Of a stretch of 46,710 bases of DNA, positions 1 to 46,710 are shown in pieces. Location: IMG/VR virus record IMGVR_UViG_3300049053_000036, positions 1-46,710 of that record; one strand, 5' to 3'. This stretch comes from a virus. A program made the position numbers and the translations under genes. The notes below the pieces were generated by a model. The model worked only from the letters and a program-made list of their open reading frames with translations, was not told the origin of the DNA and ran no database searches. The stretch's first letter is position 1. Each line of letters starts with the position of its first letter.

Positions 1-809
1 GAGGGGGCGGGGGTGATCCGGCCGGTGCGCGCGTCTTGGCGGGCACGCTTTTCGGCGGCGGCTTTCTCCAGCAGGATGCGGGCGTCCGGTTCCAGGCGGG
101 CGACGGCTTCGCGCATGACGCTGAGGTCGATCGCCTCTTCGGTCCCCGGGTAGCTGCCGGTGGGGCGGGGCTCTGCCTTGCGGTTGACGGTGCCGGGTAC
201 GCGCATGAGCCGGTCGAGGTTGCCGATCTGGGTGTCCCAGGAGCAGCCGTGTGAGTAGGCGGACGCGCCGAGGACGGCCTGAAGGGCCATGGTGAACTGC
301 TCGATCGCGGCACGGTCTTCGTCGCCGGTGATGATGTGCGGCTCGGCGAGTGCCCAGATGGGGTTGAAGCCGCCGCCGGAGTGCCACCAGCCGCTCGGCG
401 CGGGGAGTCCGGAGGCGAGGACGATTTCTTGGACGTGGTCGGCGTCGATGGGGTGGGGCATGTCGTCGAGGCCGGGCTTGTGGCCGAGCTGGCCGTAGTC
501 GCCGTCGGCCCACAGGAGGGTGAGGCCGTGGGCGAGGTCCTTCCCGCCGCGTCCTTCTGCGGGGCGTTCGCGCAGGGTGGTGACCTGCGTGTAGATGCCC
601 TTCGGGCGTCGGCGTTCCAGGTCGCTGACGTACCGGGTGGCGGCGGCGATGCCGATCTCGTCGGTGGTGAACCGCCGCCCCGCGAAGCCGTCCTTGTCGG
701 AGCAGATGGAGAGGAGGCCGGGTACGTCTTGGAAGTGGAAGGCGAGGGATGCTCTGACGAGGTCGATGTCGGCGGCCACGTCCGTGGGTGTGTGGTGGGC
801 CGTGGTCAC
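1..809 (-). CDS. AEP-superfamily DNA primase/polymerase, 3' part cut by window edge
   Basis: The frame runs open from a GTG at 809 to the left edge, so the C-terminus is missing. The visible 269 residues show primase signatures: an acidic pair in LLWADGDYG (about D102 and D104), a glycine-rich SGGGFNPIW stretch and a basic LDRLMRVPGTVNRK motif, as in RepB-like or bifunctional primase/polymerase N-terminal domains. In many relatives the glycine motif carries a His where this protein has Asn. Such enzymes make primers, and often extend them, for phage or plasmid replication, and a helicase domain often follows, which could lie beyond the edge. The GTG overlaps the stop of the upstream gene by 4 bases, so this is the last visible gene of the early operon. 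Confidence 0.8.
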   Translation of the reverse strand, partial: MTTAHHTPTDVAADIDLVRASLAFHFQDVPGLLSICSDKDGFAGRRFTTDEIGIAAATRYVSDLERRRPKGIYTQVTTLRERPAEGRGGKDLAHGLTLLWADGDYGQLGHKPGLDDMPHPIDADHVQEIVLASGLPAPSGWWHSGGGFNPIWALAEPHIITGDEDRAAIEQFTMALQAVLGASAYSHGCSWDTQIGNLDRLMRVPGTVNRKAEPRPTGSYPGTEEAIDLSVMREAVARLEPDARILLEKAAAEKRARQDARTGRITPAP

Positions 810-14057: not shown

Positions 14058-15476
14058 ATGCGGGGCATGCGCCACGAACCTGCAGACCCGCAACTCGCCG
14101 CCATCTACTGCCGTATGAGTGAAGACCGCGAAGGTGGCGGCCTTGGTGTCGACCGGCAACGCGAGGACTGCGAACAGCTCGCCGCCCAGCTTGGCCTCAC
14201 CGTTGTCCGCGTCTACGCCGACAACGACCTGAGCGCCTACAGCGGCAAGACCCGCCCCGACTACCAGCACATGCTCGAAGCGCTCCGCGCAGGCGCCTAC
14301 GGCACCGTCCTTGCCTGGCACACTGACCGGCTCCACCGCTCGCCCACCGAGCTGGAGGAGTACATCGACGTGTGCGAGCCCCGCGGAGTCCAGACCCGCA
14401 CCGTCAAAGCTGGCACGCTCGACCTGACCACCGCGACCGGCCGGATGATTGCCCGGCAGCTTGGCGTGCAGGCCCGCTACGAAGTGGAGCGGATGATCGA
14501 GCGGCAGCGCCGTGCCCGCGATCAGAAAGTGCAGCGCGGTGAATGGTCCGGCGGGCCGCGCCCCTACGGCTGGGAAGCCGACGGTGTCACCCCCGTCGCA
14601 TCGGAGATCGCCGTCATCCGTGACGTCGCCGAAGCAATCCTCGCCGGGGCCTCCGTGAGGTCCATCGCTGCCGACCTCAACGCACGTGGGCTACGCACTA
14701 GCACTGGCGCCGAATGGGACGGCGGCAACCTGGTCCGCATGCTGAAGCGGTCCCGCAACGCGGGCATCCTTCAGCACCGCGGCGAGGAAGCCGGCCCGGC
14801 CGCATGGAAGGCGGCCCTCGATGAGCCGACCTGGCGGAGTCTGCGGGCTGTCCTCGACGATCCGTCGCGGATCCCGACCGCGTCGAACGTCCGCAAGCAC
14901 CTGGGGAGCGGCCTGTATCTGTGCGGGGTCTGCGGCGAAGGCCTCACGTCGTTCTCGAAGGGCGAGGGTAAGCCCGCCAAGTACAAGTGCCGGAAGAACA
15001 ACTGCGTCCTGCGGGATCTTGTGCTGCTGGACAAGTGGGTGAAGGCGTACCTGCTGCGGCGTCTGAAGCGCCCTGATGCAGCCGAGTTCTTCACCGCCCG
15101 GCAGGAGGAGTCCACGGTCGATGTGCGGGCCGCACAGGAGGATCTGCGGGCCGCGAGGGACAACCTCGACCAGCTGGCCGCGGCGTTCGGTGCGGGGGAG
15201 ATCGACATGCAGGAGTGGCGGGTGGCTCGCGAGTCCGCGCGGGTTAGGAAGGCGAAGGCTGAGGCGGTGCTGGCGTCTGCGGTGACGGTGAATCCGCTTG
15301 CGGGGCTGTTGGCCGCTGAGGATGTTGAGGCGGCTTGGGGGGCGATGGATTTGTCGAAGCAGCGTGCTGCGGTTGATTTTGCGATGGTCGTGCGGGTGTT
15401 CCCGGCGAAGGTTGGGCGGCAGCCCGGGGGGGCGTACTGGGATCCGAATGCGGTGCGGATTGAGTGGAAGAAGTGA
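14058..15476 (+). CDS. int: large serine integrase
   Basis: A 472-residue large serine recombinase. The resolvase-type catalytic domain shows AIYCRMSED (nucleophile S21), YADNDLSAYSGKTRPDYQHML and the arginine segment WHTDRLHRSPTELEEYI. A recombinase domain follows (QRGEWSGGPRPYGWE...IVRDV-like...SIAADLNARGLRTSTGAEWDGGNLVRMLKRSRNAGI), then a zinc ribbon (CGVCGEGL...YKCRKNNC) and a coiled coil (AAQEDLRAARDNLDQLAAAF). It would catalyse attP x attB integration, and excision with a directionality factor. The length is typical for the family. ATG 14058 fits a leaderless start; ATG 14067 is an alternative. Confidence 0.95.
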   Translation: MRGMRHEPADPQLAAIYCRMSEDREGGGLGVDRQREDCEQLAAQLGLTVVRVYADNDLSAYSGKTRPDYQHMLEALRAGAYGTVLAWHTDRLHRSPTELEEYIDVCEPRGVQTRTVKAGTLDLTTATGRMIARQLGVQARYEVERMIERQRRARDQKVQRGEWSGGPRPYGWEADGVTPVASEIAVIRDVAEAILAGASVRSIAADLNARGLRTSTGAEWDGGNLVRMLKRSRNAGILQHRGEEAGPAAWKAALDEPTWRSLRAVLDDPSRIPTASNVRKHLGSGLYLCGVCGEGLTSFSKGEGKPAKYKCRKNNCVLRDLVLLDKWVKAYLLRRLKRPDAAEFFTARQEESTVDVRAAQEDLRAARDNLDQLAAAFGAGEIDMQEWRVARESARVRKAKAEAVLASAVTVNPLAGLLAAEDVEAAWGAMDLSKQRAAVDFAMVVRVFPAKVGRQPGGAYWDPNAVRIEWKK

Positions 15477-17131: not shown

Positions 17132-18316
17132 TCAGACGGCGCCGATCCACTCCGCGAACGACGTCAGGCTCTCGGCGTCCGCCCGCTTCAACCGGCGCAG
17201 CGTGGCCGCATCCTCACGCGCCCACTGGTGCCCGCGCGTGTGCTGCGGCGCGATCCGCCGTGCGACCTTCAGCGACTCGAACGCATCGTCCGCCAGGCCC
17301 GCCCACAACTGCGCGCGGCCGAGCTCGATGTAGAACCCGGAACGCCGCTCGGCCGGCAGATCGATCGGCGGCTTCCACTCGCTCGCGACGTCGAGGGCGC
17401 GCTGAACGTGGTCGTCACCGAGGCTGACGGCGACGGACACCTCATGCACGCGGACACTGTCGGGACCGAACGCCGTGCCCAGGTACACGTCTTCGCGCAC
17501 GCTGTCGCCGAGGCGGCGGGCTTCGTTCAGGTGGGTGTCGGCGGCGTCCGGGTTGCTGGCGCGGCTGGCGATCACGGCGGCCCGCATGTGCAGGGAGCCG
17601 CGGGCGGCGGCCGCAGGCGGCGTGTCCGGCGGCGGGCTGGTGTCGATGGCCTGCTCGAGTGCGCGCAGGCCGGGACCGTGGGCGCGAGCCGCAAAGAACG
17701 TCTCGGTGCGGACGTAGGCGACGGACGCTTCGAGGAGCCGATCCTCTGCCGTCGGCGCGGTCGTGCGCATCAGGTCGACGAGGCGGGCGGACAGATCACG
17801 GGCGCCGAACTTGAAGGCGACCGCGTCGGCGCACCGGTAGGCACTGACGAGGAGAGAGGCGATGTCGATGCGTTCGGCTGGCGGCACGGTGTGCAGGGCG
17901 CGGGCCAGCTCGGCGAGGAGGGCGGGGATGCTTCGGCTGATCTGGATGTATTGGGCTGCGAGCCGCCAGTCGACGGCCTCGTCGACGGCTTGCTGGAGCC
18001 TGTGAAGGGGACGGACGGGGCCGTCGTCGGGATCGTCGTGGGCGGCGATGACGGCGGAGACGGCGGGCAGCGCGTCTTGGACGCGGCTGTCGGTCTGCTG
18101 GTGTCCGGTGAGGAGGCGGCTGGGGTCGACGTTGAGGGCGGCGGCGAGGGCGTCGAGGGTGTCGTCGCCGGGGAACCGCGTGCCCTGCTCGATCTTGCGG
18201 AGCATGGACAGAGAGACGAACGCGGCGTCTGCGAGCTGGCCTTGGGTCATTCTGCGGGCATGGCGGGTGGCGGCAATGCGTCTGCCTACCTCGCGCATGA
18301 TGTCGGTGGTGGGCAT
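17132..18316 (-). CDS. XRE-family regulator with long TPR-like helical domain
   Basis: A 394-residue regulator. Residues 4-70 are a typical XRE HTH (IMREVGRRIAATRHARRMTQGQLADAAFVSLSMLRKIEQGTRFPGDDTLDALAAALNVDPSRLLTG). The remaining 320 residues are helical repeats resembling TPR-type sensor domains of actinobacterial XRE proteins (RGSLHMRAAVIASRASNPDAADTHLNEARRLGD, FYIELGRAQLWAGLADDAFESLKVARRIAPQHTRGH). Such regulators often bind small ligands or partner proteins. ATG 18316 follows a GGGAGA site. It has a palindrome directly upstream and sits between the Cys-rich operon and a HAD-like gene, and it may control both. Confidence 0.85.
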   Translation of the reverse strand: MPTTDIMREVGRRIAATRHARRMTQGQLADAAFVSLSMLRKIEQGTRFPGDDTLDALAAALNVDPSRLLTGHQQTDSRVQDALPAVSAVIAAHDDPDDGPVRPLHRLQQAVDEAVDWRLAAQYIQISRSIPALLAELARALHTVPPAERIDIASLLVSAYRCADAVAFKFGARDLSARLVDLMRTTAPTAEDRLLEASVAYVRTETFFAARAHGPGLRALEQAIDTSPPPDTPPAAAARGSLHMRAAVIASRASNPDAADTHLNEARRLGDSVREDVYLGTAFGPDSVRVHEVSVAVSLGDDHVQRALDVASEWKPPIDLPAERRSGFYIELGRAQLWAGLADDAFESLKVARRIAPQHTRGHQWAREDAATLRRLKRADAESLTSFAEWIGAV

Positions 18317-18324
18317 ACTTTCTC

Positions 18325-18350
18325 CCGTTCGGTGCGTCCACTCCGAACGG
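18325..18350. promoter_or_regulatory. inverted repeat at the start of the XRE-TPR gene
   Basis: CCGTTCGG (18325-18332) and CCGAACGG (18343-18350) form a perfect 8-bp inverted repeat with a 10-base spacer, just before the ribosome site of the 17132-18316 gene. Autoregulation is the likely use. The spacer contains a GTCCAC hexamer like those of the switch region. Confidence 0.55.
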
Positions 18351-18382
18351 TACTCGCGCGGGAACGCGCTGTGTACGCGAAC

Positions 18383-18410
18383 GGCCCCGTCGGCACGCGC
18401 TGGCGGGGCC
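18383..18410 (-). terminator. hairpin after the HAD-like gene
   Basis: GGCCCCG (18383-18389) and CGGGGCC (18404-18410) form a 7-bp stem seven bases past the HAD-like stop codon. It may insulate the XRE gene from the HAD-like gene. Confidence 0.5.
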
Positions 18411-18416
18411 GCATCG

Positions 18417-19058
18417 TCAGCGCGCGACGATCGCCGTGAGCTCGACGAGAGACGTGATACGCCAGTCCGCTGCGGCGGCCACGTCCGGATCGTCAGCCCA
18501 CAGATGTCCCCAGGGCCCGCGGCGGATGTGCGCGGCGCGCAGGCCAGCCGCCTTTGCGGGGAACAGGTCGTTGGCCGGGTGGTCGCCCACGTACAGGGTT
18601 CGGCCGGGCTCGGCCTGCGCCACGTCCAGCACCCGCTCGAAGAACCCTGACTGTGGTTTGGCCACCCCCCACTCTCCCGAGGTGACGACAAGGTCCGCGG
18701 GCAGGTCGAGGCGGCGCAGCAGGGCGCCGGCGCGGGCGGTCTGGTTCCCGGCGATGACGACGCGGACACCAGCCTCCCGCAGTACTGAGAGGGCGGGGCG
18801 GACGTCGTCGTACAGGTCCGTCTCGTCCAGCCGCTCGCCCCGCCCGGCGGCCTCCATCGCGGCGCGTTCAGCGGCGATGTCGATGTCGGGCCGGACGAGT
18901 CGGATGGCGTCGGCGTTGTCGCGGCCTTGGGCGACGACGGCGCCGACGAGGGCGGACACGGTGTGGCGGGGGATGTGGAGCCAGTCGGCCCATGTGGCCC
19001 AGTAGCGGTCGTCTCGGGTGATGGTTTCGCCGATGTCGAGCACGATGCTTTCGATCAT
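18417..19058 (-). CDS. HAD-like hydrolase with atypical motif I
   Basis: A 213-residue HAD-superfamily protein. Motif I is SIVLDIGETITRD, with the nucleophile Asp at residue 8 but Gly where most phosphatases have the second Asp. Motif II is RVVIAGNQTARA (N in place of S/T at the usual spot, T shortly after), the motif III lysine lies in WGVAKPQSGFF, and motif IV is TLYVGDHPANDLFPAKAAG. A helical cap lies at residues 15-80. Substrate unknown. A TAGGCT box seven bases before ATG 19058 suggests a leaderless transcript. It may be lysogenic cargo rather than a phage replication gene. Confidence 0.82.
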   Translation of the reverse strand: MIESIVLDIGETITRDDRYWATWADWLHIPRHTVSALVGAVVAQGRDNADAIRLVRPDIDIAAERAAMEAAGRGERLDETDLYDDVRPALSVLREAGVRVVIAGNQTARAGALLRRLDLPADLVVTSGEWGVAKPQSGFFERVLDVAQAEPGRTLYVGDHPANDLFPAKAAGLRAAHIRRGPWGHLWADDPDVAAAADWRITSLVELTAIVAR

Positions 19059-19676: not shown

Positions 19677-20336
19677 CTACACGTACTGGCGGCGCAGCGG
19701 ATCCAACGCCAACGCCTTCGGCTCCGACCCCGAATTACCCGGCCCATCCGACGGCGGAGCACCATCCTCACGACACACCAGCGTGTACGGGTCATACGAC
19801 GGCGTCTGCCACGAATACCCCTCAGGACACGACTGCCCAGCCGGACCCTGCGGGCCCTGCTCACCGGTATCACCCTTCTCACCCTGCGGCCCCTGAGGGC
19901 CCATCGGACCAGCAGGCCCCTGCTCGCCCTGCGGCCCAGCCGGACCCGTCGGGCCGACTGCCCCAGGGCTGCCGGCCACGCCTGGACTCCCGTCCTCGCC
20001 AGCCTTCCCCGGCGCACCCGACGGCCCGGGCGAACCCGCGGGGCCTGACGGGCCAGAAGAACCAGGCTCACCCTGCGGCCCGGGCGGGCCAGTCACCGCC
20101 GGGCCCGGCTCACCCCGACTCCCCGGCGGCCCCGCCACGGGCGTCCCACCAAGGTGCTCAACCTGCGCGGCCAGCGCATCCCTGGCCTGGTTCGCAGTCT
20201 CCAACTCGTGAGTGAGGCCCTGCACGCTCAGCAGAATCCACGCCAGCGCCCCACCCATCACGAGCGCCATCGTCACGACCAGCACATCCCCGCGGCGCCA
20301 GCGCCGCTCCTCCGCCCTGATCTGCACTCGGCTCAC
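19677..20336 (-). CDS. membrane-anchored collagen-like protein
   Basis: A 219-residue protein from GTG 20336 (GTGA overlap with the gene above). It has a short basic cytoplasmic end, one membrane helix ([20 protein letters not shown]), a coiled-coil stretch ([23 protein letters not shown]), then about 33 Gly-X-Y triplets with one interruption (GPAVTGPPG), and a C-terminal region with two Cys. Collagen-like segments form triple helices in many phage proteins, usually tail fibres. Here it closes the lysis cassette and is type II membrane-anchored, so a role in lysis or at the cell surface should be considered. Confidence 0.8.
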
Positions 20337-20629
20337 GACCCGGCCCCCCTCGTGAGGAGGATGATGACGGGGAGGAGGATCCCGACGAGGGGCACGATCA
20401 CCGCGCCGATCAGCCACCTGCGGGTGGCGACCAGCTTCTCGGTGTCCTTCTCCCGGAGGGTCTCCAGAGTGGAGACGCGGGAGGCGAGGGCCTCGTGCCG
20501 CAGGTCGTACAGTTTCTGGTCGACCTTGTCGTCCAGTCGGCGGCCGATCTGGGCGATGTCGTCGCGGACGTCGGTGAAGCGGTCCTCAAACCGGCGTACC
20601 ACTTCGCCCAAGGTCGGCTCATCCGGCAC
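20333..20629 (-). CDS. tail-anchored coiled-coil protein, holin-like
   Basis: A 98-residue protein with an N-terminal amphipathic/coiled-coil region ([34 protein letters not shown]...[15 protein letters not shown]) and one C-terminal membrane helix ([22 protein letters not shown]). Proteins of this type are found beside endolysins in actinophages and are often named holin-like. GTG 20629 has GGAG six bases upstream. It may pair with the gene at 20647 as holin and partner or antiholin. Confidence 0.72.
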
Positions 20630-39624: not shown

Positions 39625-39820
39625 CGATCGGCCACCTCCCCGTGAGCATGCGCCAGCGCGCCCAAAGGCGGGCGCGACGAGTGAGTCGTACGGACACCGG
39701 GACGGCGACGGACCTGAGGCCGTCCCCGTGATGGGTGACGACATGGCCGGAGGGCGGCCCGATCGTGGCCTTCACGCCGGTCCATCGAGGGAAGGGCGGC
39801 ACTGGGGACTTGCCGATCAC
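39611..39820 (-). CDS. small basic protein between terL and portal
   Basis: A 69-residue protein from GTG 39820 overlapping the terL stop (GTGA), ending inside the portal start region. It is basic and Pro-rich (VIGKSPVPPFPRWTGVKATIGPPSGHVVTHHGDGLRSVAVPVSVRLTRRARLWARWRMLTGRWP). The family is not recognised. The exact coupling on both sides supports expression. Confidence 0.6.
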   Translation of the reverse strand: MIGKSPVPPFPRWTGVKATIGPPSGHVVTHHGDGLRSVAVPVSVRLTRRARLWARWRMLTGRWPIDGAP

Positions 39821-41112
39821 GCCGCCACCTCCAGGCTCGTCACCGGCAGCAGATGCCGCCACTCATCCACCGAGCTGTGCAGCCCGTACCGCAAGCCGTC
39901 CACGCTGTGGTCGTCCACCTTCAGCGGCTGGTCGACCCCTTTCGCGGACGCCTTCTCGTCCCAGACGTACGCAGGTAGCTCCTCCAGCAGGCCCGTGCAC
40001 GAGCGGTGGATCGACAGGATGTTCGCGCCGAACGCCGTGGACACGCTGCGGATGCCGTCCTTCACCTCGTTGTCGGCCTTCGCCACACCTGGCACGCCAT
40101 CCGACCACAGCTGCGTCATGAAGGAGGCCGCGCTCGGGTCCACGAAGATCCACGAAGGGGCCACGCCCTTCTGCCCTCGGTGCTCGTACGACGCCAGCCA
40201 TTGGCGGACCCCGGCGCTGTACTGGGCGTCCGTCATCTGTCTGCGCGCGACCCGCGAGTCGTGCCGGTATTCGCTCGCCACGTACAGCCGGTTGTCCGTG
40301 CCCGCCCCGATCAGCAGCGCAGCGAACGGGTTCACCGTGCCGTAGTCCAGGCCCACGCACATCCACCGCGAGATCTCCGGCACCAGGTCGACGACATGCC
40401 GCGCCTCGTCGAACGCGTCGTAGATCACGCCCTCCGCGAGGCACCACTCGCCGAGGATGTACCGCCGGAAGAACAGGCCTTGGTGGCTCTTCTTCAGCGA
40501 GGCGACGTACGTGGGCGGCAGGCTGGGGTTGTCTTCGAGGACGAAGCTGAAGCGGTGAACGTCTAGGGCGTCCGGGTCCTGCGTCTCGGCCAGCGTCCCG
40601 TCGCGGCGCAGGTGCAGTCGGGCCCGGTCGAGGATCTGCTTCTTCAACCAGTGGTTCGGACCCTCGGGGTTCGTGGTGCCGAACCACTGCGCGCCCTCCA
40701 CCGACAGGCGGGTCTCCAGCATCTGGAAGAACGTCTGCGGGTACGTGGTCACCTCGTCCATGTACGCGCCCGCGAGCGTGAGGCCCTTGATCTTGTCGAC
40801 GGCCTTCTCGTCGTTCGCGCCAGCCACGTAGATCGTGCGGCCGAAGATGACGACCTCGCCCGCGCCCGCGCGGTAGACGCAGCGCTTCTTGCCGATCATC
40901 TGCTCGATGACGTCGATGATGTTCCGCTTCAGGGTGCGCTCGGTCTTGCCGACCATGAGCAGGGCGCCAGGCGGGCCGGTGCGGATGTACCGCAGCCACA
41001 CCATGATCGAGCCGATCGTCTTGCCGGACCGGACCGCGCCCTCCCACAGATTGCCGCGCGCGGCCGCGAGTTGAGTTGCCCGTAGCGCCTTACCGGCGAG
41101 GGGAGTGAACAT
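39817..41112 (-). CDS. terL: terminase large subunit
   Basis: A 431-residue terminase. It has Walker A at 25-32 (GAVRSGKT), Walker B ending D119-E120 (LAGAYMDE), a coupling-like TTNPEG segment, then the RNase H-like nuclease: first Asp in MCVGLDYGTVNPFAALLI, second in WIFVDPSAASF and third in VDDHSVDGLRYGLHS. It pumps DNA into the prohead and cuts it. The layout is the PBSX/XtmB-like type (terminase_3 with 6C domain). It follows terS by 12 bases. Confidence 0.95.
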   Translation of the reverse strand: MFTPLAGKALRATQLAAARGNLWEGAVRSGKTIGSIMVWLRYIRTGPPGALLMVGKTERTLKRNIIDVIEQMIGKKRCVYRAGAGEVVIFGRTIYVAGANDEKAVDKIKGLTLAGAYMDEVTTYPQTFFQMLETRLSVEGAQWFGTTNPEGPNHWLKKQILDRARLHLRRDGTLAETQDPDALDVHRFSFVLEDNPSLPPTYVASLKKSHQGLFFRRYILGEWCLAEGVIYDAFDEARHVVDLVPEISRWMCVGLDYGTVNPFAALLIGAGTDNRLYVASEYRHDSRVARRQMTDAQYSAGVRQWLASYEHRGQKGVAPSWIFVDPSAASFMTQLWSDGVPGVAKADNEVKDGIRSVSTAFGANILSIHRSCTGLLEELPAYVWDEKASAKGVDQPLKVDDHSVDGLRYGLHSSVDEWRHLLPVTSLEVAA

Positions 41113-41124
41113 CGTCGCCCCCCG

Positions 41125-41616
41125 TCACTCGGCGCCGGGCATCATCCCCCTCAGCCACTGGTCCACGGCGGCCAGGCCTTCCAGGTCCTCGCGCTCCGGC
41201 GGGACGAGCTTCAGACTCTTCTCGATGGCGATGCCGGCCGCGGCCATCAGGTTCTTCTTCGCGTCGGCGGGCGGCTCGTCGACCTCGTGCTCGGTGTAGG
41301 TGTTGCCGCTGCCGCCGATGTTGAAGACCTTCGCCCGTTGCCACAGCTGCTCAGTGAGGCGTTCGGCGTCGTCCTGGAGCGCCTCGGCGAGCATGGACCG
41401 GCGGTCGGCGAGCTGGGCGACGCGATGCCGGGTGGCCTCTTCGGTCATGGTGACGTCGAATTCGAGGCCGGCGTCCGAGCACACGACGCTGATGGTGCGC
41501 TGGGCGCGGCCGACGCGGCGTGCGATCTCGTTGCGGCCGAGGCCTTCGCCGTGGAGGCGGATGATCTCGGCTTTCTCCTTGTCGGTGACTAGGCGCATGT
41601 CCTTGCGTACGGCCAC
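41125..41616 (-). CDS. terS: terminase small subunit
   Basis: A 163-residue protein from GTG 41616 behind GGGAGG. Residues 8-50 form a homeodomain-like HTH (RLVTDKEKAEIIRLHGEGLGRNEIARRVGRAQRTISVVCSDAG) followed by a helical oligomerisation region (ATRHRVAQLADRRSMLAEALQDDAERLTEQLWQRAKVF). Together with its place before terL this identifies the DNA-recognition subunit. Its binding site (cos or pac) is probably near or upstream of this gene. Confidence 0.85.
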   Translation of the reverse strand: MAVRKDMRLVTDKEKAEIIRLHGEGLGRNEIARRVGRAQRTISVVCSDAGLEFDVTMTEEATRHRVAQLADRRSMLAEALQDDAERLTEQLWQRAKVFNIGGSGNTYTEHEVDEPPADAKKNLMAAAGIAIEKSLKLVPPEREDLEGLAAVDQWLRGMMPGAE

Positions 41617-41688: not shown

Positions 41689-42078
41689 TCAGTTCTTCGC
41701 CGGGCAGCTGCGGCCCTTGTTCGTGGAGAACTCGGTTCCGCCGTCTTCCAGTCCTGTCGCTGCGGCGCCGATGTTGCCGTGCGCGTACTTCCCGTTGGCG
41801 AGGCGGTTGTCCACGGACTTCGTGCCGCCTGTGGAGCAGTTGATCCAGACGAAGTATCCGGCGTCGTCGTTCAGGTCTTTGGTGACGTTGTCGAAGACGG
41901 CCCGCAGGTTCTTCGTGGTGTTGACCTCGACGGTGATCTGTCGCTGGTTTCCGGAGTCGTCCTGCTCGACGACCTTGTAGTCCGGCGCGGGCTGTTCGCT
42001 GCTGCTGTCGTTGCTGGAGCAGGCGGCGAGTGCGAGGGCGGTGATGGTTACGGCTGCGATGGTGTGGCGGATGCGCAT
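41689..42078 (-). CDS. secreted lipoprotein
   Basis: A 129-residue protein with a lipoprotein signal peptide (MRIRHTIAAVTITALALAAC with the lipobox LALAAC) followed by a Ser/Asp-rich linker (SSNDSSSEQPAPD) and a small strand-rich domain with two further Cys (FVWINCSTGG, GRSCPAKN). The last two could form a disulphide. It would be anchored on the outer face of the membrane. Beside terS such a gene is unlike a packaging gene; superinfection exclusion or surface modification in the lysogen is a hypothesis. Confidence 0.85.
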   Translation of the reverse strand: MRIRHTIAAVTITALALAACSSNDSSSEQPAPDYKVVEQDDSGNQRQITVEVNTTKNLRAVFDNVTKDLNDDAGYFVWINCSTGGTKSVDNRLANGKYAHGNIGAAATGLEDGGTEFSTNKGRSCPAKN

Positions 42079-42084
42079 GGTTCC

Positions 42085-42116
42085 CCCCAGGGATGTTGTT
42101 GCTGAGGGGGCATCAT
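42085..42116 (-). promoter_or_regulatory. upstream box of the lipoprotein gene
   Basis: CCCCAGGG (42085-42092) and GGGCATCAT (42108-42116, starting 30 bases from the start codon) recur at the same spacing before the exported protein gene at 43070. On the minus strand the second block reads ATGATGCCC and may be a promoter element or regulator site. Confidence 0.45.
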
Positions 42117-42191
42117 GCCGCAGTCGTTGTGATCGTTTCCGGGCATGCCAGATCTGCGGCCCATGGTGAGGCATGATCGCGTGGATTGCAA

Positions 42192-42431
42192 CTACGGGCG
42201 TAGTGCCTCTTCGGCGGTGACGCCCAGACGGCGCGCTCGGGTGCGGAACTCGTCAGACTCCAGCCACGTGACGACCTCCTCGGCGGTCACTCCGCCGAAT
42301 GCGTGCGCCCAGTTGTGCGGCTCGCTGTACCGCGAGCCGCAGCCTGCGCAGACATAGGGCATCCGGCCCGTGCCAGTGTCGCCGTAGGTGGGCACCTCAA
42401 TCTGTTCGGCCTCGCACTTGCAGAGCTTCAT
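42192..42431 (-). CDS. small zinc-ribbon protein
   Basis: A 79-residue protein from ATG 42431 behind GGAGGA. It begins MKLCKCEAEQIEVPTYGDTG and has CAGCGSRY, giving a C-x-C...CxxC zinc ribbon, then a helical end (GGVTAEEVVTWLESDEFRTRARRLG). The function is unknown. It stands alone between two hairpins, 113 bases upstream of the lipoprotein gene. Confidence 0.7.
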   Translation of the reverse strand: MKLCKCEAEQIEVPTYGDTGTGRMPYVCAGCGSRYSEPHNWAHAFGGVTAEEVVTWLESDEFRTRARRLGVTAEEALRP

Positions 42432-42452
42432 AGCCTGATCCTCCCGCGTGAA

Positions 42453-42481
42453 GGCCCCGCCGTCAGGGGAACGGTGGGGCC
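42453..42481. terminator. hairpin of the GGCCCCGCCGT type
   Basis: GGCCCCGCCGT (42453-42463) and ACGGTGGGGCC (42471-42481) pair with one mismatch, between the exported protein gene and the zinc-ribbon gene. The same element recurs at 43339-43370 and in weaker form at 43618-43649. Confidence 0.55.
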
Positions 42482-42512
42482 AACAGGGCATCGAGGTGTC
42501 GTTCTTGTGGCT

Positions 42513-43070
42513 TCATCCGCCCTGGGTCGTAACGTCGGTGATCTCCACCGACACCTTCGTACCCGCCGAAGCCGTACTGATCAGCGACGGCGTGTAACTC
42601 AGACTCGTCTGATCCGTCAGCTCCGCCGTCGCGATGACCGGGCCAGACTGGTCGCCACGGATCTCATAGGTGATCTCATACACCGCATCCGGATCAAGCA
42701 CCCCACTGACACCCAGAAAGGTCAACTCCGGCTCGACCGTCATGTTGCAGCCCGCAGACCCGAAGCACTGCTTGCTCTTCGTCTTCAGGTCGATCGAGAA
42801 GTCGTCGGTGCTGGCCTCGGCGTACGACGGCGTGGGGTCCGCCGTATCGGCGGCCGTCACCGCGTCCTCGCTCGGGGCGCTCGATGTGGCGGCTGCGGCC
42901 GGCCTGCTGTCGTCGTCGCGGGAGTTGACGACGAACACGCCGGTCCCGATGACGGCTGCGATGACGGCAGCGGCTGAGCCGATGATGACCCAGTTGCGGG
43001 GCTTCTTCGGTGCCGGCGGCGGAGACGGGGGCGGGAAGTCGGGCATGGGTGGTGGCGCGTCGTGGGTCAT
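42513..43070 (-). CDS. exported membrane-anchored protein
   Basis: A 185-residue protein from ATG 43070 behind GGGGGA. The cytoplasmic end is Pro-rich (MTHDAPPPMPDFPPPSPPPA), followed by one membrane helix (WVIIGSAAAVIAAVIGTGVFVV), a Ser/Ala linker and a beta-rich outer domain with a Cys pair (KSKQCFGSAGCNMTVEPELTFLGV, YEITYEIRGDQSGPVIATAEL). The fold looks immunoglobulin-like. This type is common in Streptomyces as surface proteins. It shares upstream boxes with the lipoprotein gene, so the two are probably co-regulated. Confidence 0.8.
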   Translation of the reverse strand: MTHDAPPPMPDFPPPSPPPAPKKPRNWVIIGSAAAVIAAVIGTGVFVVNSRDDDSRPAAAATSSAPSEDAVTAADTADPTPSYAEASTDDFSIDLKTKSKQCFGSAGCNMTVEPELTFLGVSGVLDPDAVYEITYEIRGDQSGPVIATAELTDQTSLSYTPSLISTASAGTKVSVEITDVTTQGG

Positions 43071-43075
43071 GTGTC

Positions 43076-43108
43076 CCCCAGGGTGTTCGGTGTGCAGGAG
43101 GGCATCAT
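43076..43108 (-). promoter_or_regulatory. upstream box of the exported protein gene
   Basis: CCCCAGGG (43076-43083) and GGGCATCAT (43100-43108) match the arrangement before the lipoprotein gene, with GGGCATCAT starting exactly 30 bases from each start codon. Confidence 0.45.
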
Positions 43109-43416
43109 CGGCCGTGTGCGCGCGACGTGAAGGCGGTGTGTCCGTGTTGTGACATGAGGCGGCGCCCCAACGTCCTTGGAAGAGTGGGGCGCCGCCAGGG
43201 GATCGTCCGCCATCGGGGAGGCCGTCGCAGCTCGGCCGTTCCCGCTGCGCGCTGCGAACACGCAGAGCCCCCGGCGGTTGATCCGGCCTCCGACCGTAGA
43301 CCTGTGTCGGGTGCACCGCCAGTCACCCGAACGAGTGAGGCCCCGCCGTCACGGAGGGAACGGCGGGGCCTGGTGCCGGGCGTTACCCGGCGCGCAGCGT
43401 CCAGTGTGGCAGGTCG
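43109..43416. other. 308-base gap with two strong hairpins, no gene
   Basis: The gap holds a 12-bp perfect stem (GGCGGCGCCCCA at 43158-43169, TGGGGCGCCGCC at 43185-43196) and an 11-bp perfect stem (GGCCCCGCCGT at 43339-43349, ACGGCGGGGCC at 43360-43370). Short frames exist on the minus strand, but none has a ribosome site with a plausible protein. It would suit the promoter of the exported-protein gene and possibly a packaging site. Confidence 0.5.
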
Positions 43417-43596
43417 TCAGTCGTCGTCCTCGTCGAGCGCGGCCTCAACTTCCTTGATCTTTCCGCTCGTCGACAGCTCCGCCCGAACCGGATTGCCGCC
43501 GGGCACGCCGGCCTTACGCGCGCGGTCGATGAACTCGGCGAGCTCGTCGAGGGTGAGGTCTTTGTCTTCTCCGGTGAACCGGATCGCGGCAGGCAT
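43417..43596 (-). CDS. small charged protein, 59 aa
   Basis: A 59-residue protein (MPAAIRFTGEDKDLTLDELA, then EFIDRARKAGVPGGNPVRAELSTSGKIKEVEAAL) with an acidic end. Frames upstream of ATG 43596 are not convincing. It looks like a small alpha/beta protein seen in Streptomyces mobile elements. The function is unknown. Confidence 0.65.
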   Translation of the reverse strand: MPAAIRFTGEDKDLTLDELAEFIDRARKAGVPGGNPVRAELSTSGKIKEVEAALDEDDD

Positions 43597-43617
43597 GGGC
43601 TCAGGATGGCGTACGAA

Positions 43618-43649
43618 GGCCCCGCCGCGGGAGAGTTCGCGGCAGGGCC
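43618..43649. terminator. hairpin after the 209-aa membrane protein gene
   Basis: GGCCCCGCCGCG (43618-43629) and CGCGGCAGGGCC (43638-43649) pair with one mismatch, downstream of the membrane-gene operon that ends at 43665. Confidence 0.55.
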
Positions 43650-43664
43650 CAGGTGTGGGGTGTG

Positions 43665-44294
43665 CTACTGGACGGTGTGGTGTCGGATGGTGTCCTTCGG
43701 GTCGTAGACGATCTTCCCGTCGGTGCCGATGCGCACTACACGCAACCCCTCTTCCGGCTCCTCCTCCCCGCTGTTGTTGCCGTTGGTGTTGCCGTGTGAC
43801 CTGCAACAACAACCGCCGCCATGCCCCTCGGCAACAGGGGACGGGACGGCCGGGATGTCGTCCTGGTGCACGGCCGGCCCGTTCCCCTCACGCGTGCGCA
43901 CGGCCTTCCACGGGATGCCCTCGGCGGCGAGGAGAGCCTTCACGGCCTTCGTGTCGGGGAGCTCCAGGTCGTCGCGAAGGCGGGTGAGGAGGACGCCCTT
44001 GTCGTCGCCGACGAGGCGGCGCAGCGCCTCCCCGACGTCCGGCTCCTCACCCTCCGGTTCGTCCTCGTCGGCGTCCCGGCGGCGTGCGCGCCATCCGGCC
44101 GTCTTCTGCCAGCCGAGCGTGCCCAGGATCCCGACGATGACGTACGCAATCCACGGGAACGCGGCGATGACCCCGAACAGCGCCCCGGCCGCGATGCCGA
44201 GCAGGACAGCCTTGGCCGTCCGCTCGCTCATCCCGCCCGACTCCCCCGCCTCGTCGGCCTGCTCCTGAGCCTCAGGCTGCTCGTCGGCGCTCAT
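43665..44294 (-). CDS. membrane protein with HTH-like region and CCC cluster (ICE type)
   Basis: A 209-residue protein from ATG 44294 (ATGA overlap). An acidic N-terminus is followed by two membrane helices (AVLLGIAAGALFGVIAAF, WIAYVIVGILGTLGW), a basic stretch, a possible winged-helix-like region (GEALRRLVGDDKGVLLTRLRDDLELPDTKAVKALLAAEGIPWKAVR) and a tail with CCCRSHGNTNGNNS and VYDPKDTIRHHTVQ. I recognise this tail pattern from Streptomyces integrative-conjugative elements and plasmids, where the function is not known. Confidence 0.75.
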   Translation of the reverse strand: MSADEQPEAQEQADEAGESGGMSERTAKAVLLGIAAGALFGVIAAFPWIAYVIVGILGTLGWQKTAGWRARRRDADEDEPEGEEPDVGEALRRLVGDDKGVLLTRLRDDLELPDTKAVKALLAAEGIPWKAVRTREGNGPAVHQDDIPAVPSPVAEGHGGGCCCRSHGNTNGNNSGEEEPEEGLRVVRIGTDGKIVYDPKDTIRHHTVQ

Positions 44295-44797
44295 GCGAAC
44301 GTCCCCGTGAACCCAACGCCGAGCATGTTCACGGCGCTGCCGAGGGGCACCGCGGCCATCCCCGCCACGTTCCCGGACAGGGCCAGGCACACCCCGGAGA
44401 ACGCCCCCAGGACGAGCTTCCCGTTCGGCACCCGGGGCGCCCACTTCAGCAGAGCGATGAACACCAGCGTGAACAGGAACACGATCACGAACCCGCCGTC
44501 GGTGAGGACGACCGGCTGGCCGCGGACGACGAGCGGAGAGTGGCCGCCGACGCCCCACACCAGGCCCGCGTACCCAGCCACGTTGCCGATCCAGATGGCG
44601 GCCCAGGTGATGATGCCGAGGGCGGACCAGGCGGTGAACGTGGCGAGCGCGGCGAGCAGGCCGTAGATGTGGGCGAGGGCGAACGGTACGAGGGCGGCCC
44701 ACCGGTGTTTCTCCTGGAACCACCAGCGGAGCAGGGACATGAGGATGACGCCGACGCCGAGGGCGACGCCGCCGAGGTTGATGACGGTGTTCGGCAT
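44291..44797 (-). CDS. polytopic membrane protein, 168 aa
   Basis: A 168-residue protein with four or five membrane helices (VINLGGVALGVGVILMSLLR, WAALVPFALAHIYGLLAALATFTAWSALGII, WIGNVAGYAGLVWG, FVIVFLFTLVFIALLKWA, and a Gly/Ala-rich end). It is coupled downstream by ATGA. It resembles small membrane proteins of Streptomyces conjugative elements. Role unknown; spread of the element between mycelial compartments is the family-level hypothesis. Confidence 0.75.
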   Translation of the reverse strand: MPNTVINLGGVALGVGVILMSLLRWWFQEKHRWAALVPFALAHIYGLLAALATFTAWSALGIITWAAIWIGNVAGYAGLVWGVGGHSPLVVRGQPVVLTDGGFVIVFLFTLVFIALLKWAPRVPNGKLVLGAFSGVCLALSGNVAGMAAVPLGSAVNMLGVGFTGTFA

Positions 44798-44802
44798 GGG
44801 GA

Positions 44803-44961
44803 TCAGTGGCTCCAGACGGCCGCGACGTAGACCGCGGCGAGAGTGATGAGGGCGACGGTGCAGACGACCGGGCCGAGGTACAGGAGTGGGGCGCGGCGGG
44901 GTGCGACGGCGTAGAGGCCGGCCGCGCCGAGGAGTGCGGCGATGGGCCAGAGGAGGCTCAC
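44803..44961 (-). CDS. small two-helix membrane protein, 52 aa
   Basis: A GTG at 44961 overlaps the DUF2637-type gene stop (GTGA) and opens a 52-residue frame with two hydrophobic segments (VSLLWPIAALLGAAGLYAVA and LLYLGPVVCTVALITLAAVY) joined by a basic turn. It ends five bases before the next ATG. Its length is below usual gene-finding limits, but the coupling and clean topology support it. Confidence 0.68.
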   Translation of the reverse strand: MSLLWPIAALLGAAGLYAVAPRRAPLLYLGPVVCTVALITLAAVYVAAVWSH

Positions 44962-46082
44962 GGGTAGAACCCCGTTCCTTCGTTGATCCGCTCGCGTGCG
45001 TCCTTGAGCCGTCGGCCCGCGGTCGCTGGGCTCACGGCGAGGATTTCGGCGGCGGTGGTCTTGGTGAGCCGCTCCCCTTGCTTGAGCCGGGCGGCAAGTC
45101 GTGTGATCTGCTGCTCCCGCTCGTCGGTCTCCGGCTCACTGGTGGGCTCAGGGCTCAGCGCGGCGCGGCTCACGACGGTCGGCTCGGCCGGGCTCAAGAC
45201 GGACTCACGTGAGACGGGCAGGTCAGCGGGGGGCGGGGGCTCCAAGGCGGGCGCGAATACCGGCTCGGTCGCGGCGACGACGAGGGCGGTGTGAACGGTC
45301 GTCTCGTAGTCGACCGGCTCAGGCTCACCGGGGCCGGGCTCACGGCTCACGGTGGGCTGAGCCGCCGGTAGTTCGGGTTGAGCCGGGACGGGCTCAATGT
45401 TGAGGACACCCGAGACGGGGGCGATGGCCCGGCCGTACCGAGTGAGCCGCAGAGCCATGACCGCTGAGACGGGGGCCTTGCTCCTCCATCGCCATCCGTA
45501 GCGGGCGCGCAGCCGGGCCCGCTCGATGAGCCGGGACTGCTCCAGCCGGATCACGTCGTCGTACGAGCGCAACTCCCACAGCTTCATCCGCCGCCACAGC
45601 CGGAAGGTGGAGATCGGGTCGAGCAGCCACCGCACCAGGCGGACGGACTCCATGTGGCGGCCGGCCGTGATGTCGGCGGTGCGGCCGATGGCGTGCCGGG
45701 CGGCCTCGACGACGACGACGAACAGGATCGGAATGACGGCGTGCATGCCGGTGCCGATGGGGTCGGGCCAGGCTGCGGCGGCGTTGAAGGCGATCGTGGC
45801 GGCGGTGAGCAGCCAGGCGGTGTGGCGCAGCATGGCGAGGGGCATGCGCAGCCACGTGAGGAGCAGGTCAAGGGCGAGCAGTACGAGGATGCCGGCGTCG
45901 ATACCGATCGGGAAGATCATGGCGAAGTCACCGAACTGCTTCGCCTTGGCCAGCTTGGCGACCGCAGCGTACGAGCCGATGAAGCCGATTGCGGCGATCG
46001 CGGCGGCCCCTGCGGCGACGGCTGCGATGAGCTTGCGTTGCAGGGTCGTGAGTTGGGGGCGGTCGCCGGTGGGCGTCTTCAC
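44958..46082 (-). CDS. DUF2637-type membrane protein with C-terminal HTH
   Basis: A 374-residue protein from GTG 46082 with AGGAG seven bases upstream; a TTG further up is less likely. The first 150 residues contain four membrane helices (LIAAVAAGAAAIAAIGFIGSYAAV, FPIGIDAGILVLLALDLLLTWL, AWLLTAATIAFNAAAAW, AVIPILFVVVVEAARHAIG), matching the DUF2637 family of actinobacterial plasmids and conjugative elements. After a basic stretch and a long Pro/Glu-rich linker, a C-terminal HTH follows (QITRLAARLKQGERLTKTTAAEILAVSPATAGRRLKDARE). A membrane-anchored DNA-binding protein is therefore likely; roles in transfer or replication are inferred. Confidence 0.82.
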   Translation of the reverse strand: MKTPTGDRPQLTTLQRKLIAAVAAGAAAIAAIGFIGSYAAVAKLAKAKQFGDFAMIFPIGIDAGILVLLALDLLLTWLRMPLAMLRHTAWLLTAATIAFNAAAAWPDPIGTGMHAVIPILFVVVVEAARHAIGRTADITAGRHMESVRLVRWLLDPISTFRLWRRMKLWELRSYDDVIRLEQSRLIERARLRARYGWRWRSKAPVSAVMALRLTRYGRAIAPVSGVLNIEPVPAQPELPAAQPTVSREPGPGEPEPVDYETTVHTALVVAATEPVFAPALEPPPPADLPVSRESVLSPAEPTVVSRAALSPEPTSEPETDEREQQITRLAARLKQGERLTKTTAAEILAVSPATAGRRLKDARERINEGTGFYP

Positions 46083-46107
46083 GGTGCTCTCCTGGGAGCC
46101 GAGCAAG

Positions 46108-46153
46108 GCCGCCCCCTCGCGGCCGTGGGGGAACGAGTACGCGAGGGGGCGGC
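46108..46153. terminator. 13-bp hairpin before the DUF2637-type gene
   Basis: GCCGCCCCCTCGC (46108-46120) and GCGAGGGGGCGGC (46141-46153) form a perfect stem with a 20-base loop in the gap upstream of the DUF2637-type gene. It may attenuate the operon. Confidence 0.55.
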
Positions 46154-46165
46154 GGTCTGGGTGGG

Positions 46166-46354
46166 TCAGCCGTTGTGCTTGCGGTAGCGGCGCGGCATCT
46201 GCGTGCCGGCTGCGTCGCCGTCGCGGGCGACTCGGGCGCGGTGCTTCTCGCGGCGGATGCGGGAGGCGCGGTCCGGAGCGGACTCGCGGCCGGCGTACTG
46301 CGATTCGGCGAGGGCGCGGTCGTTGCCACCGGCGAGCCAGGAGAAGAGGCCCAT
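46166..46354 (-). CDS. small basic protein, 62 aa (ICE type)
   Basis: A 62-residue protein (MGLFSWLAGGNDRALAESQY, then AGRESAPDRASRIRREKHRARVARDGD and PRRYRKHNG) with a hydrophobic start and a strongly basic body. Its ATG overlaps the upstream TGA by one base. Similar MGLFS...-type proteins occur before DUF2637 genes in Streptomyces mobile elements. The function is unknown. Confidence 0.7.
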   Translation of the reverse strand: MGLFSWLAGGNDRALAESQYAGRESAPDRASRIRREKHRARVARDGDAAGTQMPRRYRKHNG

Positions 46355-46488
46355 CAGGCGCGCCCCCGTCCGTGGCAGGTGCCGCAGGTGCGGAAGACGG
46401 TGACCTGGCTGCCGTCCTCGTTGAGGGTGGTCTCGGGGGCTCCGCCTTGGCCGCCGCAGCCGCCGCAGATGGGGGGTTCGTAGCTCAT
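46354..46488 (-). CDS. CxxCxGxG zinc-knuckle protein, 44 aa
   Basis: A 44-residue protein (MSYEPPICGGCGGQGGAPET, then FRTCGTCHGRGRA) with two CxxC(H)GxG repeats like half of a DnaJ zinc finger, so one zinc ion is likely. Its ATG overlaps the partial gene above by 4 bases. This mini-protein is a recurrent part of actinomycete conjugative elements. Confidence 0.78.
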   Translation of the reverse strand: MSYEPPICGGCGGQGGAPETTLNEDGSQVTVFRTCGTCHGRGRA

Positions 46489-46710
46489 GCGGTCACCGCC
46501 GGGCGGGGCAGGGCACGGCACTTCTCCGCATGGCCTTGGGCCAGTTCGCGGGTGCGGCGCAGGCCGAACGAGGCGTAGCCCTCGTCGCACCCGAGGCACG
46601 TCATCGCGGCACTGTGCTCGCTGCCTCGGATGTCGACGGTGGCGCCTGCGACGGTGAGGTAGCGGGCGATGACGCCGTCGGGCCACGGCTGTGCGGCGGG
46701 GGTGGTGGGC
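46485..46710 (-). CDS. zinc-finger-like protein, 5' part cut by window edge
   Basis: The frame is open to the right edge; 74 residues are visible. They read PAAQPWPDGVIARYLTVAGA, TVDIRGSEHSAAMTCLGCDE, then FGLRRTRELAQGHAEKCRALPRP, with a CxxC...HxxxC zinc-site pattern. This WPDGVIARYLTxAGAxVDI type is familiar from Streptomyces conjugative elements, usually 80-90 residues long, so only a few residues are probably missing. It is coupled by ATGA to the CxxCxGxG gene. Confidence 0.75.
   Translation of the reverse strand, partial: PTTPAAQPWPDGVIARYLTVAGATVDIRGSEHSAAMTCLGCDEGYASFGLRRTRELAQGHAEKCRALPRPAVTA

Follow-up and report, generated by a model that had tools for sequence, protein, structure and literature searches.

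A membrane-protein gene module ahead of the terminase genes of a temperate phage: a possible motor-less counterpart of the plasmid TraB/Spd module

Introduction

Why would a phage carry, next to its terminase genes, a run of membrane-protein genes that recalls a conjugative element? The question is raised by IMG/VR record IMGVR_UViG_3300049053_000036, a 46.7-kb virus record (46,710 nucleotides, the whole of which is referred to here as the window) whose gene content is that of a temperate phage. A preliminary description of the window, made from the sequence alone, had noted a run of genes at 43665-46710 (a zinc protein, a CxxCxGxG mini-protein, a basic protein, a DUF2637-type membrane protein, and three further membrane proteins) without a visible FtsK-like ATPase, had likened it to actinomycete integrative-conjugative elements (AICEs), and had taken it either as a module recruited by the phage or as a phage-conjugative element hybrid. 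Every one of these genes was found again, all on the minus strand, and neither the FtsK/SpoIIIE-type Tra protein family (PF01580) nor TraB queries matched in the window. The observation is thus confirmed; the interpretation is partly supported. We propose, in a reading to which we give evenly balanced confidence, that the module is the phage equivalent, without the motor, of the TraB/Spd transfer-and-spread module of Streptomyces plasmids and that it serves as a membrane-anchored dock for DNA.

Gene content and coupling of the module

The module is one operon, read on the minus strand from 46709 to 43417, and all genes of the run are present. Its features are listed below from the right edge inward (TM, transmembrane; HTH, helix-turn-helix; HMM, hidden Markov model; AF2, AlphaFold2).

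46485..46709, minus strand: small Cys/His ("zinc") protein with its 5′ end past the right edge; HMM homologues in loci L009/L010 and L237/L243
46354..46488, minus strand: 44-aa CxxCxGxG mini-protein; DnaJ_CXXCXGXG at 20.7 bits, below the cutoff of 32.7; homologue in L006
46166..46354, minus strand: 62-aa basic protein; HMM family with 15 matches, 5′ of DUF2637 in related phages
46108..46153: perfect 14-bp inverted repeat with an 18-nt loop, in the 83-bp gap ahead of DUF2637
44958..46082, minus strand: DUF2637 protein, with four TM helices, cytosolic helices (WRRMKLWE motif), a disordered linker, and a C-terminal HTH
44803..44961, minus strand: TM52, a 52-aa TM protein, overlapping the DUF2637 stop by 4 bases
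44291..44797, minus strand: TM168, a 168-aa polytopic membrane protein; phrog_16379, 1.3e-11; HMM family
43665..44294, minus strand: TM222, 209 aa, with two TM helices and a winged helix; HMM family; AF2 model
43417..43596, minus strand: conserved 59-aa acidic protein at the end of the module; HMM family with 16 matches

The stop and start codons of DUF2637/TM52 and of TM168/TM222 overlap by 4 bases, which indicates translational coupling. The DUF2637 gene most likely starts at the GTG at 46082, which lies behind an AGGAG and is where its homologues begin, and not at the TTG at 46106. TM168 was read as a 4-TM protein, with the number of helices judged by eye. The zinc protein had no match in Pfam or PHROG, and its putative zinc character is suggested by the spacing of its Cys and His residues. 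The inverted repeat is possibly an operator or an RNA hairpin; a search for sigma-70-type promoters found none.

Occupants of the slot ahead of the terminase genes

HMMs built from the window recovered TM222 relatives in 58 loci and TM168 relatives in 45, counts that include the window, its copy (L001), and duplicate contigs; only the 129-locus set described below was deduplicated. The module is more than a chance assembly, because the order DUF2637-TM168-TM222 recurs in many viral contigs. TM222 lay 1.6 to 6.6 kb ahead of terL in 35 viral loci.

The equivalent position can hold a translocase. L181 (G055), a prophage that has a terminase and tape-measure-like genes, encodes a primase with 78% identity to the window's; next come a 4TM-HTH protein, a TM protein of 58 aa, an FtsK of 697 aa (PF01580, 3.6e-7), and the terminase. 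TraB-like FtsK proteins were present in 43 viral loci, L181's record included (L181, L247-L289), and stood 1.5 to 3.2 kb ahead of terL in 24 of them, that is, in all those with a terminase match. Compared with TraB of plasmid pSVH1, the phage protein shows 32% identity over 46% of its length. Among 50,697 phage records, a distant match to it was seen in Gilgamesh only.

The motor and the TM168/TM222 genes did not occur together. The 129 deduplicated viral loci comprise 43 with FtsK, 50 with TM222 or TM168, and 0 with both. Searches of whole records found TM222 in 27/50 records of one set and 14/19 of another, and PF01580 had no match anywhere in those 41 TM222-bearing records. Partner proteins were exchanged between the two arrangements: one 4TM-HTH family without an HMM link to DUF2637 accompanied FtsK in 12 loci and TM222 plus TM168 in 2, and a second such family did so in 5 and 7, respectively. 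These sequence comparisons are best read as showing an exchangeable slot in temperate Streptomyces phages, bounded by the replication genes and the terminase, that accepts either a TraB-like motor or a motor-less set.

Plasmids and host genomes were also searched. A tblastn search with TM168 and TM222 in 72,556 plasmid records returned none; by HMM, TM222 adjoins DUF2637 on one linear plasmid (L064), and for this reason the label "phage-only" was dropped for TM222. Among 40 Streptomyces genomes, 22 had a TM222 match at E ≤ 0.001. The 16 best of 33 listed places were fetched; a terminase match fell within the stretch in 8 of the 16, and a phage-type FtsK in none.

The winged helix of TM222

The AF2 model of TM222 consists of two TM helices and a winged helix of the order H-E-H-H-E-E (pLDDT about 95), and its 209 aa contain no ATPase motor domain. 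HHalign aligned this winged helix with the C terminus of phage/AICE FtsK proteins at a probability of 87.9% (E value of 3.2e-6, score of 34.7), while the best score among 100 column shuffles was 17.4. When 107 families from the loci were compared with TM222, FtsK ranked first after TM222's own (31.0, followed by 22.6 and 17.4), and the winged-helix HMM matched two AICE-type FtsK proteins at 6e-6 and 3e-4. In the fold search, VIA Z values reached 6.2 and FtsK gamma (2ve8) appeared at a nonsignificant Foldseek E value of 0.73; that a family is missing from the fold lists was not counted as evidence. Homology between the TM222 winged helix and the FtsK C terminus of phages and AICEs is likely, if short of proven.

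The DUF2637 protein and its relatives

The DUF2637 protein matched PF10935 with an E value of 7e-39 and 133.7 bits (curated cutoff, 22.8). Its AF2 model shows four long helices (taken as TM) and cytosolic helices, which a disordered linker connects to a three-helix HTH at the C terminus (pLDDT about 96); a fold search with the model found nothing. Relatives were present at 61 viral loci, with a conserved membrane part and strongly differing HTH tails. In some phages, DUF2637 is replaced by nonhomologous 4TM-HTH proteins, so the 4TM-HTH architecture is kept.

A DUF2637 tree (90 rows of 149 prepared, made by a quick method and with many open forks) placed the window in a 41-row set with SH-aLRT support of 95, consisting of 38 viral rows including the Streptomyces phage VWB, 1 plasmid, 1 chromosomal contig, and the window. 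This set was apart from a chromosome/plasmid clade (SH-aLRT of 97) and far from AICE-type rows. The tree groups the window's protein with VWB gp24 in a phage clade.

Most often, DUF2637 of the window type is found in chromosomes, as a core gene that lies between rtcB and lysS/argS. RtcB-like neighbors were found in 63 loci and ArgS-like neighbors in 56 (76 placed, 80 fetched); RtcB, LysS-type, and ArgS proteins were confirmed by Pfam in one example (L139 9878-11377), and no FtsK-like gene lay within the fetched flanks of any of the 80 loci. Across six Streptomyces genomes, 5/27 above-cutoff DUF2637 places had an FtsK match no more than 1 kb away (TraB-adjacent genes of AICEs), and none of the 8 highest-scoring, window-like places did.

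Relation to conjugative elements

SpdB2 is the characterized spread protein of plasmid pSVH1. Seven of nine SpdB2-type plasmid relatives that stand beside TraB or in TraB-type operons scored above the PF10935 cutoff, among them one that is 58% identical to SpdB2, with FtsK after it. Phage DUF2637 and SpdB2 thus have a layout in common and, by way of these intermediates, a Pfam family, a tie that stops short of close kinship. A general HMM link among DUF2637, SpdB2, and other 4TM-HTH families was rejected as not significant. The window's zinc protein is also homologous to one encoded in a Streptomyces chromosomal element (L237/L243) that carries FtsK, an integrase, and a DUF2637-like gene.

An AICE is an element without virion genes, and the window carries terL, portal, head morphogenesis, tape measure, and endolysin genes. 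Among published markers of AICEs are an FtsK/SpoIIIE-type Tra protein, a tyrosine or serine integrase, and RepSA, RepAM, or Prim-Pol (PF09250) (PMC3218068). The window has the integrase, a serine recombinase at 14058-15476. Judged from its genes, the module is not a conjugative element. The likeness seen in the preliminary description stands in part: the Pfam link between DUF2637 and SpdB2, the zinc homologue in an AICE-like element, and the TraB-like FtsK in the equivalent slot of a phage with a 78%-identical primase speak for it, and the phage clade and the lack of FtsK speak against it.

Record, edges, and phage identity

Outside the module, the following features bear on the identity and edges of the record.

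3..809, minus strand: AEP-type DNA primase, N-terminal 269 aa, running off the left edge; phrog_2478 (DNA polymerase/primase), 2.7e-8
14058..15476: serine integrase (serine recombinase); PF00239, 2e-28; PF07508, 1e-11
39817..41112, minus strand: terminase large subunit (terL); phrog_2, 5.9e-45
41125..41616, minus strand: putative terminase small subunit (terS), by position and an HTH; phrog_5536 (unknown function); 89% identical in the closest relative
41689..42078, minus strand: lipoprotein before terS; phrog_22081, 8e-41; lipoproteins at the equivalent place in several relatives
42513..43070, minus strand: single-TM exported protein outside the core module; phrog_6812, 1.7e-6; start at 43070 judged by eye

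Exonuclease VIII is also among the phage genes. The lipoprotein matched an entry-exclusion lipoprotein family at 21 bits, below the cutoff of 35. Near the lysis and tail genes, 19677-20417 encodes a collagen-like repeat protein with GPxGxx-type repeats.

The primase fragment, which matched PHROG and had no Pfam match, is 72 to 78% identical to the two viral relatives found, L181 and L182, in which the full-length protein has 912 and 891 aa. The left-edge primase and the right-edge zinc open reading frame are in frame across a hypothetical circular join. This join was rejected: with the relatives' primases so much longer, about 620 aa would be absent, and the in-frame join is therefore accidental, the record having been cut inside the primase gene.

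No DNA-level similarity to known phages was found for 36 to 46.7 kb of the window. The closest terL relative, IMGVR_UViG_3300006948_000003 (G010), has a terL 94%, a terS 89%, and a portal 78 to 80% identical to those of the window and is complete and circular, as judged by 123 identical bases common to both ends. Its order is a different primase, the basic protein, DUF2637, TM52, TM168, TM222, the 59-aa gene, lipoproteins, terS, and terL. From DUF2637 to the portal, gene order is identical in the two records, with lipoprotein genes in between, which speaks against the misassembly at 41.6 to 43.4 kb that the preliminary description had considered. PF01580 had no match in this circular relative, and by analogy the sequence beyond the right edge of the window would be without FtsK as well.

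Discussion

In the docking model that we favor, DUF2637 (the 4TM-HTH protein), TM52, TM168, and TM222 would be made together and would probably form one membrane complex. The complex would bind phage DNA by two predicted DNA-binding domains, the DUF2637 HTH and the TM222 winged helix, and would hold it at the membrane, as reported for SpdB2 with pSVH1: that protein is described as oligomeric, membrane located, double-stranded DNA binding, and interacting with TraB (PMC4170104). Because other phages hold a TraB-like translocase in the equivalent slot, the common task of the slot is probably to bring phage DNA into position at a septum or the membrane, motor or no motor.

Several observations weigh against this model. 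SpdB2 of pSVH1 itself had no match to PF10935, and window-type DUF2637 compared with SpdB2 profiles gave HHalign probabilities of 0.9 to 4%, which are not significant. The TM222 winged helix matched neither pSVH1 TraB nor chromosomal FtsK, and Foldseek with TM222 returned only generic winged helices, with a best E value of 0.14. Of the 129 viral loci, which were gathered by separate queries with flanks of ≤10 kb and many of which come from record fragments, 36 have neither FtsK nor TM168/TM222. Weaker TM222 matches occurred in five chromosomal regions of Streptomyces genomes (L318-L322) without a terminase match nearby, and scans for repeats and palindromes revealed neither a TRS/clt-like repeat cluster nor an sps palindrome. 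Some of these five regions contain a 4TM-HTH gene and are perhaps plasmid-like elements.

Docking, spreading, and exclusion are not separable by sequence. Superinfection exclusion or host takeover, in which early membrane proteins would block DNA entry of rival phages or plasmids and the HTH tails would act as regulators, strikes us as unlikely. A membrane-rich operon with a flanking lipoprotein and the latter's subcutoff match to an entry-exclusion family would suit it, and in a variant of the idea the module would compete with TraB for DNA sites, a part that could fall to a translocase DNA-binding domain copied without its motor. However, the module lies between primase and terminase and not among repressor and integrase genes, the full translocase kept in the slot by other phages is ill suited to exclusion, and the lipoprotein match may reflect the signal peptide only. 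Somewhat less likely again is a role in spreading, in which phage DNA would be moved or held at septal cross-walls and would pass between compartments, driven by host FtsK or a resident TraB. Spd proteins are reported to spread plasmids inside the mycelium (PMC4170104, PMC9513070), which suggests by analogy that the module may work likewise, and related phages have a TraB-like motor in the equivalent slot; this phage itself has no motor, and clt-like repeats were not found.

That the genes are passengers, a host core DUF2637 gene acquired as a moron with no role in DNA handling, we regard as improbable. DUF2637 is indeed a core chromosomal gene by rtcB and lysS/argS and is replaced by nonhomologous proteins in some phages, but its coupling and order with TM168/TM222 are conserved, and the substitutes are other 4TM-HTH proteins. 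Most improbable of all is a true conjugative element fused to the phage, with a TraB gene just past the right edge. The zinc homologue and DUF2637-type gene of an FtsK-bearing integrase element would agree with such a fusion, as would L181, in which FtsK comes after a primase 78% identical to the window fragment. Against it stand the full phage gene set, the closest complete circular relative without FtsK, and the failure of FtsK and TM168/TM222 to appear together in any of the 129 loci. The hybrid envisaged in the preliminary description thus does not fit this phage, with no FtsK in the window or in its circular relative, while recruitment of the module by the phage does fit. The same description had held that its reading would be refuted if homologues turned up chiefly in ordinary Streptomyces phages at the equivalent position; this is largely what was found, in VWB gp24-gp26 and the 61 viral loci.

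With so many Streptomyces phages carrying it, the module is in that sense ordinary; more striking are its alternation with a TraB-like motor and a putative detached translocase-type DNA-binding domain. Searches of open-license PMC papers brought up no description of a TraB/Spd-like module in Streptomyces phages. For many of these phages, the analysis connects a membrane module that lacks annotation to the transfer and spread machinery of Streptomyces plasmids. It reveals a phage slot in which a motor of the TraB type takes turns with a motor-less complex, and it gives a testable role to DUF2637, a family present in phages, plasmids, and AICEs and as a core Streptomyces gene by rtcB. A bolder extension, which we consider doubtful, is that temperate Streptomyces phages own a slot dedicated to mycelial spread and to particle-free septal crossing, occupied in some by a TraB-like motor and in others by a docking complex that has no motor and is built on a detached TraB-type DNA-binding domain. 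If this were true, a virus would be using plasmid-type intramycelial spread, with phage or prophage DNA passing septal walls without particles.

Comparison with known systems

AICEs (S. endophytica L243 and NBC_00562 plasmid unnamed1) resemble the window in having a DUF2637-type gene and an integrase, together with a zinc gene in L243 and a primase in NBC_00562 plasmid unnamed1. Unlike the window, they possess FtsK and other DUF2637 subtypes, and no phage structural genes were seen in the stretches of these two elements that were examined. The pSVH1-type SpdB2/TraB module (NC_007431) likewise combines a polytopic membrane protein that has an HTH-like C-terminal end with a small TM protein, although this layout was judged by eye from sequence for SpdB2 and by AF2 for the window. 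Zinc-type small proteins are also found in some Spd/TraB plasmids. In contrast to the pSVH1-type module, the window lacks TraB/FtsK, and hence a traB neighbor, and its DUF2637 belongs to a distant subfamily. The phages with FtsK in this position, represented by L181 and another 42 viral contigs, share with the window the position before the terminase and the 4TM-HTH and TM partners; they differ in having the ATPase motor and in lacking TM168/TM222.

The temperate Streptomyces phage VWB (NC_005345) differs from the window in its tyrosine integrase (serine in the window), its terminase and primase were unmatched by window-type terL and primase profiles, and homologues of the zinc and CxxC small proteins were not found in it. 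The HAD and HTH regulator genes of its right arm match by kind; in the window, 17132-19058 holds HTH regulator and HAD hydrolase genes of the kinds of VWB gp56 and gp55. Its gp24 is a DUF2637 protein 69% identical to that of the window over 212 aa and is followed, in the same order before terL, by a TM168-type protein (the C-terminal part of gp25) and a TM222-type protein (gp26), all three annotated as hypothetical proteins. Since VWB carries the module, plasmid-like DNA handling at septa can be tested in an existing isolate.

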